Below, in pieces: positions 25,393 through 59,514 of a DNA stretch of 59,522 nucleotides. The DNA is taken from contig NZ_QGMZ01000024.1 in NCBI RefSeq assembly GCF_003173335.1, forward strand, positions 1 to 59,522. Reading direction: 5' to 3'. This DNA comes from Methanospirillum stamsii. Its GTDB lineage: Archaea > Halobacteriota > Methanomicrobia > Methanomicrobiales > Methanospirillaceae. The translations under genes and the position numbers were made by a program. Numbering within the stretch: position 1 is the stretch's first letter; each line of letters starts with the position of its first letter. The notes under the pieces were generated by a model. The model did no database searches. It was not told where the DNA came from and saw only the letters and a list, made by a program, of their open reading frames with translations.

Positions 25393-27819
25393 ATGAATAT
25401 AAAACATAATTCACTCATTCTTTTCCTCCTGCTCCTATTCTCAATGATAATCACCCTAATCCTTCATTCACAGACATACACTCTTCTTACATCCGGAGTA
25501 TTTCCCCAGGTCCTAACACCTGATCCCTGGTATATTATCCGGCAGACAGAACTTGCTGCTCATTCATTCCCCTCCTATACATGGTTTGATCCTTTCACTG
25601 GTTTCCCGGATGGTACAATAATATATTGGGGGCCTTTCCTCCCCCTTTTATGCGGATTACTTGCCCAAATCCCGGGATCCGGAAATGAATCTGCAATGAT
25701 CCTTTTCGTCTCATGGATACCGGTACTTACTGCAATGCTTACCATTCCCCTTGCATATTGGTTTGGAAAAGAGATCAAAGGAGAAATGTGTGGAATTGCG
25801 GCAGCATTTCTTATGGCTGTCATGCCGGGAAGTTACCTGATTCGGTCCATGTATGGATACGTGGACCATCATATCTTCGAATCTTTTTTCATGTTGGCAT
25901 ATTCACTGGCCCTTGTACTCTTTTTCAACCGTATTTATGGTAACAACGACACCCCACGGATAAAACCGGCAGTCCTCGGAGGAGGAATAACCGGACTGAT
26001 GCTGGGCCTCGGTATGATTAATGCACCGACCATGATCCTTATCGCCGGTATCACCACAATTTTTGTTCTCTTTGCCGCATATCAACTCATAAATCAAGGG
26101 AAAAACCTCCTGCCATTCAGCATTTTGATAGGAGTTTCATCATGTATCGGAGCGGTAATCACCCAGATATTCTATACCCCAGACCCGGCAGTACAGGCCC
26201 CATTCATCTTTAACCCGGTTTCTCTTGCATCAGTCCTCTTCATTCCGGCAATCGCCGGATTCCTGTTTCTGGGTCTTCAGTTTTTGATGAAGAAATACCA
26301 GGTAAAGCATAACCGGATACTCCCTGTAACTCTCCTGTCAGTACTAACTGTAATAATCCTGGCTTTTCTCCTCCTCCCCGGTTATGCTAATGATCTTCTC
26401 AATAGCATAATGGGTGCTTTGAATTCTGTTCCAACCAATTACGGCATTGCAGAATACTTTCCGCTAAGTCTGGATGTAGCATTTTTTAATTACCACCTCA
26501 TGCTCCTCATGCTTATTCCCGGACTGCTCCTCCTGCTAATTTCTGGGATTCGCAAACAGGACAGTATTGCAATCTATCTCATCCTCTGGACCGGAGTCAC
26601 CGGATTATTAACCATCACCAACACCAGGTATGAGATTCTTTTCGCAGTTCCTTTGGCACTGACAACGGCTTATTTCCTTGACTGGCTGTTTCATTATGAG
26701 AGAAAAATCGTGGATATTACCACTGAAAGCCTTACTGAAGAAAAAAGTGTTCAGGATAAAAACTGGAGAGAAAGACCAACATCCCTTATTGCAATGGTCC
26801 TCCTAATCGGGACCTGTTTACTTTCTCTTTGTATCGGAGGCATGGTTGCAACAGCGGATTATAACTATCAGCCATATGTTGCATCAGAAGACTGGGTAGA
26901 AGGATTACTCTGGATGAAGACTGCAACCCCTGATCCGGGTGTGAATTACTACCAGACATACCAGTCAGATACTTTTACTTATCCGGATTCATCATACGGT
27001 GTTCTCTCATGGTGGGACTATGGCCACTGGATTACTACTATTGCTCACCGAATGGCGGTCACAAATCCCTTCCAGGCAAACCTTGACATGGGTGCACAAT
27101 TCTTTATGGATAAAAAAGAATCAGGTGCCGATACAATTGCTACAACGAATAATATCCGGTACATCATCACAGACGCCGACATGCTCTTTGATACCATGCA
27201 GATGATGATGAAGGTAAAATCAAAAGATCTCACACAAAGTCAGTACATGGGCCTTATTTCTACCACCGATCCGGTCACCGGAAAACCTGTAAGTTCCATC
27301 GGGTATCGCCAGGCTTTTTACGAAAGCATGGTAACAAGACTGCATGTTTTTGATGGGTCAGCAGTAACCGGAGAGGAGGCAAAATATGAGGAAGAAGGAA
27401 CTCCGGTACCAGGAACAGACATGATAGTAATCTTCCCCGGTGGCCCGGATCCGGAAATATCTGAATCAATCATAAGGCCGATAAAAGATCTTGATGCTCT
27501 CCAGCACTACCGGCTTATCTGGGAGTCGAATACCTCTCTTTCAACCACTGATGAACATGACATCCGGAAAGTGAAGATATATGAAAGGGTTCCAGGTGCA
27601 ATAATTTCGGGAGAAGGAACAATTGAATTACAACTCACAACTAACCGGGACAGAGTATTTACCTATCGACAAAAATCACACAATGGCACATTTACCCTTC
27701 CATATTCCACTTCAGGATCATCCTATCCGGTTCAATCAACCGGACCATACAGGATAATTGAAACCGGTGAAGAGATAGTAGTACCAGAAGAGATGGTGAT
27801 GAGCGGATTGGAAAAATAA
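25393..27819 (+). CDS. aglB: Oligosaccharyltransferase AglB (STT3 family)
   Basis: An 808-residue membrane enzyme that transfers lipid-linked glycan to Asn in N-X-S/T sequons on the outer face. The N-terminal half has about 13 membrane segments. The first external loop contains TPDPWYIIRQ, with the catalytic Asp, and the YGYVDHH motif supplies further metal ligands. The signature WWDYGHW is at residues 540-546, at the start of the soluble C-terminal domain. Length is normal for euryarchaeal AglB. Its presence makes the sequon-rich repeat and TPR proteins in this window plausible substrates. Confidence 0.93.
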   Translation: MNIKHNSLILFLLLLFSMIITLILHSQTYTLLTSGVFPQVLTPDPWYIIRQTELAAHSFPSYTWFDPFTGFPDGTIIYWGPFLPLLCGLLAQIPGSGNESAMILFVSWIPVLTAMLTIPLAYWFGKEIKGEMCGIAAAFLMAVMPGSYLIRSMYGYVDHHIFESFFMLAYSLALVLFFNRIYGNNDTPRIKPAVLGGGITGLMLGLGMINAPTMILIAGITTIFVLFAAYQLINQGKNLLPFSILIGVSSCIGAVITQIFYTPDPAVQAPFIFNPVSLASVLFIPAIAGFLFLGLQFLMKKYQVKHNRILPVTLLSVLTVIILAFLLLPGYANDLLNSIMGALNSVPTNYGIAEYFPLSLDVAFFNYHLMLLMLIPGLLLLLISGIRKQDSIAIYLILWTGVTGLLTITNTRYEILFAVPLALTTAYFLDWLFHYERKIVDITTESLTEEKSVQDKNWRERPTSLIAMVLLIGTCLLSLCIGGMVATADYNYQPYVASEDWVEGLLWMKTATPDPGVNYYQTYQSDTFTYPDSSYGVLSWWDYGHWITTIAHRMAVTNPFQANLDMGAQFFMDKKESGADTIATTNNIRYIITDADMLFDTMQMMMKVKSKDLTQSQYMGLISTTDPVTGKPVSSIGYRQAFYESMVTRLHVFDGSAVTGEEAKYEEEGTPVPGTDMIVIFPGGPDPEISESIIRPIKDLDALQHYRLIWESNTSLSTTDEHDIRKVKIYERVPGAIISGEGTIELQLTTNRDRVFTYRQKSHNGTFTLPYSTSGSSYPVQSTGPYRIIETGEEIVVPEEMVMSGLEK

Positions 27820-54624: not shown

Positions 54625-54714
54625 GCTGTTGTGGCCTAGCTGGTTAGGGCGCCAGACTCATAAGTAAAAAACTGAGATATCTGGAGGTCGCGGGTTCGGA
54701 TCCCGTCAACAGCA
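54625..54714 (+). tRNA. tRNA-Met (CAT) with a 16-nt intron
   Basis: The acceptor stem pairs GCTGTTG (54625-54631) with CAACAGC (54707-54713), and A at 54714 is the discriminator; CCA is not encoded. The anticodon CAT is at 54659-54661. The intron 54663-54678 forms a perfect bulge-helix-bulge. Outer helix CCAGA/TCTGG is followed by central 4-bp helix CTCA/TGAG, 3-nt bulges TAA and ATA, and inner pair GT/AC, with a five-A loop. Cuts after 54662 and 54678 restore a normal 7-nt loop. CAT could also be tRNA-Ile2 with modified C34; elongator Met is the usual intron carrier. Confidence 0.92.
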
Positions 54715-55765: not shown

Positions 55766-55895
55766 GATGGTTATTTTGGTGATACTCGGTTATGGATGAT
55801 TCGTAATGACGTATTCCTAAAAGGTCACATATTCTTCATTGCGAACCAATGTTTTATCGCTCGAAAATTTTACAAAAATTTGTGAATTTGAAAAA

Positions 55896-56708
55896 ATGGG
55901 TTTGAAAAAAGATCTGGCCGGCGTTATTCCACAGGACCTTCTCAGTTATCTTCCGGACGGATATGAAATAATAGGAAATATTGCAATAATATCAGTACCT
56001 GCTTCACTTGAAGCATACTTCAAAGACATAACCAAAGCACTTCTCTCAAGAAGACCATCACTGGTTACCATTCTTAATAAAATATCCACAATTCAGGGTA
56101 AAGAACGGATCGCCCATTACGATCCAATATTTGGGAAAGAAACAATTACAGAAGTAAGAGAATTCGGTTTCAGGTACCAACTGAATGTTCGGGAAGTATA
56201 TTTTTCAACGAAAATGGCATCAGAGCGAAGACGAATACACGAACTCATTAATAAAAGAGATACCGTGTTTGTTCCTTTTGCCGGTGTCGGCCCATATGCA
56301 ATCCCTGCCGCAACACGTGGCGCTGAGGTATATGCCATCGAAATCAGCCATCATGCTTGTGCGTGGATGGCCAGGAATGCAATAGTTAACGGCGCCTCAT
56401 CAAACCTGCATATTATCCGGGGTGATGCATTGCAGGCTGCATATTACCTGAATAAAGATTTTTCAAGGATCATTATCCCTACTCCCTACGGAGTTCTGAA
56501 AAGCCCGGATTTTTTTTTGGACAGACTAATCCAGGGAGGTACAGCTCATTGGATAACATTCTGCAATAAAGCTCAGATAAATGAATATATCGAAGAACTG
56601 TCAGGTGACATATATGAAGTAACATATTGTCACAAATCCGGAAACATTGCTCCATCAGTGTTCCGTTGGATTCTTGACATAAAAAAGAAAAAAACCGATA
56701 GACAATAG
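55896..56708 (+). CDS. Trm5/Tyw2-family SAM-dependent tRNA-modifying enzyme homologue
   Basis: About 270 residues from MGLKKDLAGVIPQDLLSYLP. The SAM site VFVPFAGVGPYAIPAATRGA and AIEISHHACAWMARNAIVNG are as in archaeal tRNA G37 methyltransferases (Trm5) and the aminocarboxypropyl transferase Tyw2. The N-terminal D1 domain of Trm5 is missing, which is closer to short Tyw2-like proteins. The catalytic motif, NLP in Trm5, reads PTPYG here, so the exact reaction is uncertain. Confidence 0.72.
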   Translation: MGLKKDLAGVIPQDLLSYLPDGYEIIGNIAIISVPASLEAYFKDITKALLSRRPSLVTILNKISTIQGKERIAHYDPIFGKETITEVREFGFRYQLNVREVYFSTKMASERRRIHELINKRDTVFVPFAGVGPYAIPAATRGAEVYAIEISHHACAWMARNAIVNGASSNLHIIRGDALQAAYYLNKDFSRIIIPTPYGVLKSPDFFLDRLIQGGTAHWITFCNKAQINEYIEELSGDIYEVTYCHKSGNIAPSVFRWILDIKKKKTDRQ

Positions 56709-56836
56709 AACCAATTACAAATAGAGCAAGGAATTTTTTATAATTATTTATTAATATTTTTTTATAAATAAAAATAAATATTCTTGGGTGGGCTATCATT
56801 AAATATCTCCCGGTCAAACGAATCATGAGGTATTAT

Positions 56837-57448
56837 ATGGCAAACCTTCGTTTTGATATACTTGTGGTAATTATTGCAATCGTATCTGTTTCTTTTATTT
56901 GCTTTGCATATGCGGATGATGAAATTTATCCTGGCGGTATGGTAATCACCAAGTTCAACAGTTCTATGATCGGAACGATGCAGAACTCAAAAGCATTCAA
57001 CAGTTCGGAAATTGGGACTATGCAGGGCTCAAAGTCATTTAACAGCTCTGAAATCGGAACGATGCAGAACTCAAAAGCATTCAACAGTTCGGAAATTGGA
57101 ACTATGCAAAATTCAAAGTCTTTTAACAGCTCTGAAATCGGCACAATGCAGAACTCAAAAGCATTCAACAGTTCGGAAATTGGGACTATGCAAAATTCAA
57201 AGTCTTTTAACAGCTCCGAAATAGGCACAATGCAGAACTCAAAAGCATTCAACAGTTCGGAAATTGGAACTATGCAAAATTCAAAGTCTTTTAACAGCTC
57301 TGAAATCGGCACAATGCAGAACTCAAAAGCATTCAATAGTTCGGAAATTGGAACCATGCAAAAAGCAAAATCATTTAACAGTTCTATGATAGGAACAATG
57401 CAGAATTCCGTATCTACGATACCACTTCCATCAGGTGTCAAGGTCTAA
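56837..57448 (+). CDS. Secreted protein with eleven 14-residue sequon repeats
   Basis: About 203 residues from the second in-frame ATG (aggt five bases upstream). A signal peptide (MANLRFDILVVIIAIVSVS... ending FAYA) is followed by mature DDEIYPGGMVI. Then come eleven consecutive 14-residue units of the form FNSSEIGTMQNSKA, alternating A and S at the last position, and a tail TIPLPSGVKV. Every unit contains the N-glycosylation sequon NSS. At DNA level the units repeat as near-identical 84-bp doublets. No family is recognised. A beta-solenoid or fibre built of glycosylated repeats is plausible; the paralogue follows 151 bp downstream. Confidence 0.85.
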   Translation: MANLRFDILVVIIAIVSVSFICFAYADDEIYPGGMVITKFNSSMIGTMQNSKAFNSSEIGTMQGSKSFNSSEIGTMQNSKAFNSSEIGTMQNSKSFNSSEIGTMQNSKAFNSSEIGTMQNSKSFNSSEIGTMQNSKAFNSSEIGTMQNSKSFNSSEIGTMQNSKAFNSSEIGTMQKAKSFNSSMIGTMQNSVSTIPLPSGVKV

Positions 57449-57599
57449 AATTCACAAGAATAAGCCTTACATATATTATCATATTTCTTTTCTTTTTCTA
57501 ATACACAGTATAATTTTCAGTTGACTTAAATAAAATAACTGAAATCTGAAAGATTATCCTTAAATAATTCTCTGACATACGAATTCTGAGGATATAATT

Positions 57600-58127
57600 A
57601 TGGTAACCCTCCGTTCTGGTATACTGGTAATGATAACAGGTGTATTAATTGCTTCTTTGTTCTGTTTTGTATGTGCAGATGATGATGTGATTTATCCTGG
57701 GGGTATGGTAATGCCTTCATTTAATACTTCAATGATTGGAACTATGCATGGAGCTGAAGCGTTTAATACCTCAATGATTGGAACTATGAAACCAAAATCA
57801 TTCAACAGTTCTGAAATTCCATCTATGCATCCGGCTGAAGCATTCAACAGTTCAATGATAGGAACTATGCAAAAGGCAAAATCATTTAACAGCTCTGAAA
57901 TCGCTACAATGCAACCAGCTGAAGCATTCAATAGTTCAATGATAGGAACTATGCAAAAGGCAAAATCATTTAATAGCTCTGAAATCGCTACAATGCAACC
58001 AGCTGAAGCATTCAACAGTTCAATGATAGGAACTATGCAAAAGGCAAAATCATTTAACAGCTCTGAAATCGCTACGATGCAGAAAACTAACTCCTCAATT
58101 CCGCTTCCTAAAGGAATATCGGTCTGA
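57600..58127 (+). CDS. Secreted protein with nine 14-residue sequon repeats (paralogue)
   Basis: A 175-residue protein with gaggatataatt before ATG. Signal peptide ...LIASLFCFVCA is followed by DDDVIYPGGMVMPS, matching the paralogue's mature N-terminus. Nine units follow of FNSSMIGTMQKAKS and FNSSEIATMQPAEA types (the second one residue short). The tail SIPLPKGISV also matches. Each unit carries NSS or NTS, and an additional NSS lies just before the tail. Repeat sequences differ from the neighbour's while the N- and C-terminal caps are conserved, so the two genes diverged and expanded independently. Confidence 0.85.
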   Translation: MVTLRSGILVMITGVLIASLFCFVCADDDVIYPGGMVMPSFNTSMIGTMHGAEAFNTSMIGTMKPKSFNSSEIPSMHPAEAFNSSMIGTMQKAKSFNSSEIATMQPAEAFNSSMIGTMQKAKSFNSSEIATMQPAEAFNSSMIGTMQKAKSFNSSEIATMQKTNSSIPLPKGISV

Positions 58128-58790: not shown

Positions 58791-58910
58791 TCACTGCTCA
58801 GATCAGGTCGGAATATACAATAGTCAGAAAAAACGACAACAACCTGAAATTATCTTTAAAAGATCCACTTGTAAAAGTCTAACAGAATACTATCAATCAT
58901 TTTCCAAACA

Positions 58911-59030
<120 letters not shown>

Positions 59031-59115
59031 GAGAACTGAACTCCGGTCTGACCCGGATTTGAAGCCGTATGTTTCTTTCAATTAACAATAACAAGAATTT
59101 TTTTAAATTTAAACA

Positions 59116-59235
<120 letters not shown>

Positions 59236-59319
59236 GAGAACTGAACTCCGGTCTGACCCGGATTTGAAGCCGTATGCTTCTTTCAATTAACAATAACAAG
59301 AATTTTTTAGATTTAAACA

Positions 59320-59439
<120 letters not shown>

Positions 59440-59442
59440 GAG

Positions 59443-59514
59443 AGCCAAGATCCGGATTTGAACCGGAGTGTAGTTGATCTGCAGTCAACCGCGTGGCCGC
59501 TCCGCCATCTTGGC
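59443..59514 (-). tRNA. tRNA-Cys (GCA)
   Basis: The acceptor stem is GCCAAGA/TCTTGGC. The anticodon loop CTGCAGA gives anticodon GCA. The discriminator at 59443 is U73, the identity base of tRNA-Cys, and CCA is not encoded. No intron. It precedes the 5S array on the minus strand, whereas in many euryarchaeal rRNA operons tRNA-Cys follows 5S. Confidence 0.93.

Follow-up and report, generated by a model that had tools for sequence, protein, structure and literature searches.

Tandem genes in Methanospirillum stamsii encode members of a genus-specific family of secreted proteins with an N-glycosylation sequon in every repeat unit

The stretch of DNA analyzed here, referred to below as the window, is a 59,522-nucleotide contig of the sheath-forming methanogen Methanospirillum stamsii (NZ_QGMZ01000024.1). 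Close to its end, it carries two small genes, P1 and P2, which follow each other in tandem on the same strand and code for repeat proteins (Table 1). Both proteins consist of a signal peptide, a short head (DDEIYPGGMV in P1 and DDDVIYPGGMV in P2), an array of repeats, and a short tail; their sequences show neither a membrane anchor nor a motif for covalent attachment. Residues Ala26-Asp27-Asp28, which span the end of the signal peptide and the mature start, are invariant throughout the repeat family, and the tail, [TS]IPLP[SK]G[VI][KS]V, is conserved along with the pattern A↓DD-x-[IL]-[YW]-P at the mature start. The ATG codon at 56837, rather than the one at 56825, was taken as the start of P1 because of the position of the SD-like motif. 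A conserved promoter-like box precedes each of the two genes; that of P1 sits inside a CTTAAATATCTCC-like stretch that is kept 5' of the P1- and P2-type genes in the group of genomes that includes strain JF-1. A first-pass annotation, made from the DNA letters alone, had placed the two genes and counted their units exactly, and the signal peptides (recognized by eye), mature start, and tail that it described recur in the relatives.

Table 1. Features of the window and of the related loci mentioned in the text
Feature	Coordinates	Strand	Remarks
AglB gene	25393-27819		
tRNA	54625-54714		Rfam, 58 bits
TRM5/TYW2-like methyltransferase	55839-56708	+	Conserved 5' of P1 across the JF-1 group; not taken as functionally linked
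TATA-like box of P1, TTAAATA	56799-56805	+	Upstream comparison
SD-like motif of P1, GAGGT	56827-56831	+	Sequence
P1, secreted repeat protein, 203 aa	56837-57448	+	Orthologues in L030 and L031; relative in L034 is an N-terminal fragment at a contig end
P1 signal peptide, 26 residues, CFAYA↓DD	56837-56914	+	Cleavage site placed by eye
P1 array, 11 units FNSSxIGTMQxxxx of 14 residues	56954-57415	+	One sequon per unit
P1 C-terminal tail, TIPLPSGVKV	57416-57445	+	
TATA-like box of P2, TTAAATA	57560-57566	+	
P2, secreted repeat protein, 175 aa	57600-58127	+	Orthologues in L030, L031, and L033
P2 signal peptide, 26 residues, FVCA↓DDD	57600-57677	+	Cleavage site placed by eye
P2 array, 9 units FN[ST]SxIx[ST]Mxxxxx	57720-58094	+	One sequon per unit
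P2 C-terminal tail, SIPLPKGISV	58095-58124	+	
Three 5S rRNA genes	58909-59439	-	Contig end
tRNA-Cys	59442-59514		
mspA of JF-1	L071, 6904-8034	-	Leader just upstream of 8034
mspA leader sites	L032, L035, L038, L076; G150:C1:2538042-2538072		
Synthetase-like frame (G169)	L094, 10-2100	-	Not a family member

All units of P1 are spaced by 14 residues, whereas in P2 seven of the spacings are of 14 residues and one is of 13. In both proteins, N-[ST]-S occupies residues 2 to 4 of each unit; P1 contains 11 sequons and P2 contains 10, with the extra one located in its tail. These counts are not a product of chance: composition-preserving shuffles of the mature protein reached them in 164 of 20,000 cases for P1 and in none of 20,000 for P2. 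The unit formula originally proposed for both proteins, FNSSxIxTMQxxxx, describes P1, but the first three units of P2 deviate from it, with FNTS in units 1 and 2, SM instead of TM in unit 3, and MH or MK in place of MQ in all three. In P1, alternating units give rise to a higher-order period of 28 residues; midway along the array, nucleotide differences are few at even unit distances and number about 10 to 11 at odd ones.

The same organization is found in the relatives. The sequon first noticed in the units of P1 and P2 is present in all 101 units (38 of them distinct) from nine genomes, and the 14-residue period has a single 13-residue exception among 90 intervals. Phe1, Asn2, and Ser4 are invariant, the invariance of Phe1 and Ser4 being partly built in by the unit search, which demanded F-x-[ST]-S; Asn2 was not demanded in the codon count and is encoded by AAC or AAT in 101 of 101 units. 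Position 3, the X of the sequon, is always Ser or Thr, position 6 is Ile or Val, position 8 is Ser or Thr, and Met9 is found in 98 of the 101 units, while positions 10 to 14 vary in residue and are constant in number. The unbroken spacing of the arrays suggests that no unit has been missed and shows that none with Thr at position 4, which the search did not admit, was passed over; the only FNST seen belongs to the degenerate C terminus of the protein from genome G153. The family architecture is 2 to 20 units of F-N-S-S-x-I/V-x-S/T-M followed by a five-residue linker, set between the short conserved head and tail. The sequon density, 6.2 to 6.7 per 100 aa, compares with 1.23 per 100 aa in 27 secreted-like proteins and 0.41 per 100 aa in 100 proteins without transmembrane segments from the same loci.

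The units are under purifying selection, with within-array dN/dS values of 0.08 to 0.21 where dS could be measured; the P1 array is nearly saturated at synonymous sites. Asn and Phe are fixed in every unit although their codons differ, and the codons of the two serines are mixed as well (68 AGY and 31 TCN at position 3; 20 AGY and 81 TCN at position 4). The low dN/dS values and varied codons indicate that the repeat proteins are maintained. Thr does not occur at position 4 in any of the 101 units, which share descent and do not represent 101 independent trials, compared with 60% N-x-T among the sequons of secreted-like proteins. Given this Ser-only position and the conservation of the nonsequon positions Phe1, Ser3, and Met9 to about the same degree as Asn, selection acts on more than the presence of a sequon, and the plain reading is that the N-S-S motif also has a structural role.

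The family is confined to a single genus. A hidden Markov model built from ten relatives and searched across the order (232 genomes) recognized it in 9 of the 12 Methanospirillum genomes, the remaining three being 64 to 75% complete, and retrieved no relative elsewhere in the order, contrary to the initial expectation that the repeat would be found in other Methanomicrobiales. Among 393 genomes sampled from the phylum, nothing was detected beyond the window's own genome, and an exact pattern of three successive units matched only Methanospirillum records in the GTDB collection, which as scanned may omit near relatives of the window. A search with P2 of the genome contig collection returned no relative, while that of the genome set did find relatives; phages, plasmids, and viral contigs contained no match. 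One weak match, in genome G169, was discarded: it is a 765-aa synthetase-like frame with an unrelated 14-residue repeat (ENLQKLNAPTLKAI), present in four copies near its N terminus. In agreement with the earlier remark that no named family fits, no Pfam or NCBIfam model scored above its curated cutoff, and curlin repeat models in Pfam gave no match up to an E value of 10. The best match in a PDB sequence search (E value of 0.011) was a coronavirus spike HR1 construct, taken to be a chance resemblance to FNSSxIGxMQ, as the 1-6-9 hydrophobic spacing of the unit is not a heptad pattern. In JF-1, the repeat genes are placed a few locus tags after the pyruvate carboxylase pair Mhun_3189-3190, which was the only match to Mhun_318x-320x in the main text of the literature; the main texts of published envelope proteomics studies that were read do not name a repeat gene, and glycan-bearing peptides from nearly identical repeats may have escaped standard searches. 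This is a real, conserved, genus-specific family of secreted repeat proteins for which no earlier description was found.

Two types of gene neighborhoods can be distinguished. In group A, which comprises the window, JF-1 (G150), G154, and M59 (G152, on split contigs), the TRM5/TYW2-like methyltransferase gene is followed by the P1-type and P2-type genes and, where the sequence continues (that is, not in the window), by a TPR protein gene whose product begins like a lipoprotein. The relatives in G154 are precursors of 189 and 330 residues. In group B (G160, G157, and G153), there is one repeat gene, its units being of the FNSSDVKSMQPSEK type, and a pair of MspA-family genes lies immediately 5' of it in the same orientation. 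The farther of these two bears the 31-nt leader typical of mspA (TGCTGAGAGTATCAGCATGAAATGTAGGAGG), identical to that of the JF-1 gene, which places the repeat gene two genes downstream of it. The JF-1 MspA itself, with 377 aa, C271, T86, S144, and N157, matches the published descriptions of this protein (PMC6242892, PMC10593813), and its leader has exactly one perfect copy in each of eight genomes. Although the MspA family is matched about 26 times in genome G160, many of the matches being >75% identical to the query copy, it is the copy bearing the mspA leader that neighbors the repeat gene. With about 3,600 genes, a position within two genes of one particular gene would arise by chance in roughly 0.1% of cases; this figure was estimated after the fact and probably concerns a single evolutionary event, as common descent likely accounts for the arrangement in all three genomes. 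This proximity to mspA is the principal novel finding, and it makes an association of the repeat proteins with the sheath better supported. In group A, including the window, the repeat genes are not near mspA. An operon of the repeat gene with sheath genes is not supported: the repeat genes have their own TATA-like boxes in both groups, so that no cotranscription is implied. Nor are the neighbors related in sequence, as the repeat proteins link only to each other, and not to the MspA-family neighbors, in all-against-all blastp, and searches for MspA-family homologs match loci other than the repeat genes. Members of the MspA family are encoded in 12 of the 38 genera of the order that were searched, the repeat family in just one, and therefore it is not a general requirement for a sheath.

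Some features of the mspA locus deserve mention in their own right. The leader carries a hairpin, TGCTGA-GAGTA-TCAGCA, followed by TGAAATGTAGGAGG; it is identical over 31 nt in the eight Methanospirillum genomes and may stabilize the mRNA or have a regulatory role, the gene being expressed at a very high level. MspA contains two Cys residues (257 and 271), whereas only C271 is stated in the published description (PMC6242892). There is no N-x-S/T sequon in the JF-1 MspA sequence, so that Asn157, for which glycosylation has been suggested as a possibility (PMC10593813), is outside a canonical sequon.

As would be expected of N-glycoproteins of the AglB type, the repeat proteins combine predicted secretion with N-x-S/T, where x is not Pro, in each unit, and a sequon in every unit at such a density fits a glycoprotein. 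The AglB gene reported previously in the window is indeed there, but it is about 29 kb away from P1 and P2 and was rejected as a sign of linkage between them. Altogether, these proteins are best read as genus-specific secreted envelope proteins, probably sheath-associated and probably N-glycosylated, their location and glycan occupancy being inferred. The reading that we favor, at a rough probability of 45%, sees P1 and P2 as small, secreted, unanchored Methanospirillum-specific proteins that serve as a glycan-bearing accessory of the envelope, most likely on the MspA sheath. After Sec-dependent export, AglB would add N-glycans to many of the evenly spaced asparagines, and the repeats, forming a stiff or regularly packed rod, would attach noncovalently to the envelope, most likely to the MspA sheath, where they could act as an accessory layer or scaffold that carries glycans. 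The sheath as the most likely location is suggested by the group B adjacency, the restriction to one genus, and the lack of an anchor; the lack of adjacency in group A, the separate promoter-like boxes, and the absence of the family from other genera with MspA-family proteins argue against it. The initial picture of a glycosylated surface fiber, sheath-associated or adhesin-like protein is plausible and partly supported: predicted secretion and a sequon in every unit agree with it, as does the sheath gene two genes away in three genomes, while the fiber and an adhesive role are conjectural. It needs amendment in that conservation of the unit reflects more than its sequon.

Unassigned phenol-soluble polypeptides that confer rigidity make up some 20% of the sheath in M. 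hungatei (PMC6242892), and accessory sheath or plug proteins could not be assigned from genomic context (PMC11576556). A repeat family encoded beside an mspA-type gene in one clade offers a concrete candidate for such a missing sheath or envelope component. The more specific proposal that it is the missing accessory component of the sheath, possibly among the phenol-soluble polypeptides, and would place a row of N-glycans, one per 14-residue repeat, on or under the amyloid tube, is a speculative one that we hold to be rather unlikely. If glycosylated, these proteins would display an unusually regular N-glycan array.

The repeats could alternatively form a self-assembling beta-solenoid or amyloid-like stack with curli-like polar ladders of Asn, Ser, and Gln, which might nucleate or brace the amyloid sheath and in which the sequon would be incidental or mostly unoccupied. 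The strict 14-residue period, in arrays old enough for P1 to approach synonymous saturation, agrees with such a stack, even though unequal crossing-over alone could also keep the period, and so do the Ser-only position 4 and the conserved positions 1, 3, 6, and 9. The first-pass annotation had proposed structure prediction for this kind of fold, and the AF2 model of P1 (from four sequences) was a weak beta-solenoid with one strand per unit. However, its mean pLDDT was 62 in the best model and 33 to 47 in the other four, and a group B relative yielded no structure (mean pLDDT of 45), so the model was not relied on. Foldseek matches of the P1 model were mostly to beta-helical enzymes, all with E values of >0.001 and TM scores of about 0.2, and the proline at position 11 of many units disfavors continuous strands. 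A stack of this type therefore seems doubtful, if worth keeping in mind. Somewhat less plausible still is a secreted, glycosylated protein without ordered structure that works as a spacer or adhesin of the cell surface independently of the sheath, mediating, for example, contact with a syntrophic partner, with the copy number tuning its length. The range of 2 to 20 units, the failure of AF2 to fold the relative, and the lack of an anchor would all suit such a protein, but its units would hardly need a strict length and conserved hydrophobic positions; moreover, it has no binding domain, and an mspA-type gene adjoins it in three genomes. Finally, a nonfunctional repeat expansion or spurious ORFs, which low-complexity repeats and a reverse strand likewise open across them might bring to mind, are highly improbable in view of the low dN/dS, the head, tail, SD motif, and TATA-like boxes conserved between species, and the retention of the family in three-quarters (9/12) of the Methanospirillum genomes.

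The repeat family can be compared with several known systems. Curli amyloids of the CsgA type also consist of short repeats containing Asn, Ser, and Gln behind a Sec signal peptide. Their unit, however, is about 19 to 22 residues long, Pfam curlin models do not match P1 or P2, whose fold is predicted at low confidence, and no Csg-like neighbors were seen beside the repeat genes. Mucin-like and adhesin-like surface glycoproteins similarly have short repeats that each contain a glycosylation site and vary in copy number, but their sites are Ser/Thr-Pro O-sites and not N-sequons; P1 and P2 differ from them further by a strictly constant period and by lacking an anchor or binding domain. The amyloid sheath protein MspA (SH) shares with the repeat proteins secretion, the Methanospirillum envelope, and, in one clade, the gene neighborhood (PMC6242892, PMC10593813), while differing in its size of 377 aa, its two imperfect repeats of ~80 aa, the absence of a sequon, and the lack of sequence similarity. 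The threads of Sulfolobus (Saci_0406; PMC11607397), compared by description only, are likewise archaeal, secreted, and independent of type IV pilins, and they are N-glycosylated; they are built of folded beta subunits joined by donor strands, with no such repeat array.

Several RNA genes surround P1 and P2. At the contig end, three nearly identical 5S rRNA genes are arranged in tandem and adjoined by a tRNA-Cys gene; 16S or 23S rRNA had no match within the window. Another tRNA, found upstream of the methyltransferase gene by Rfam and not by ARAGORN, may have an intron or a long variable arm.
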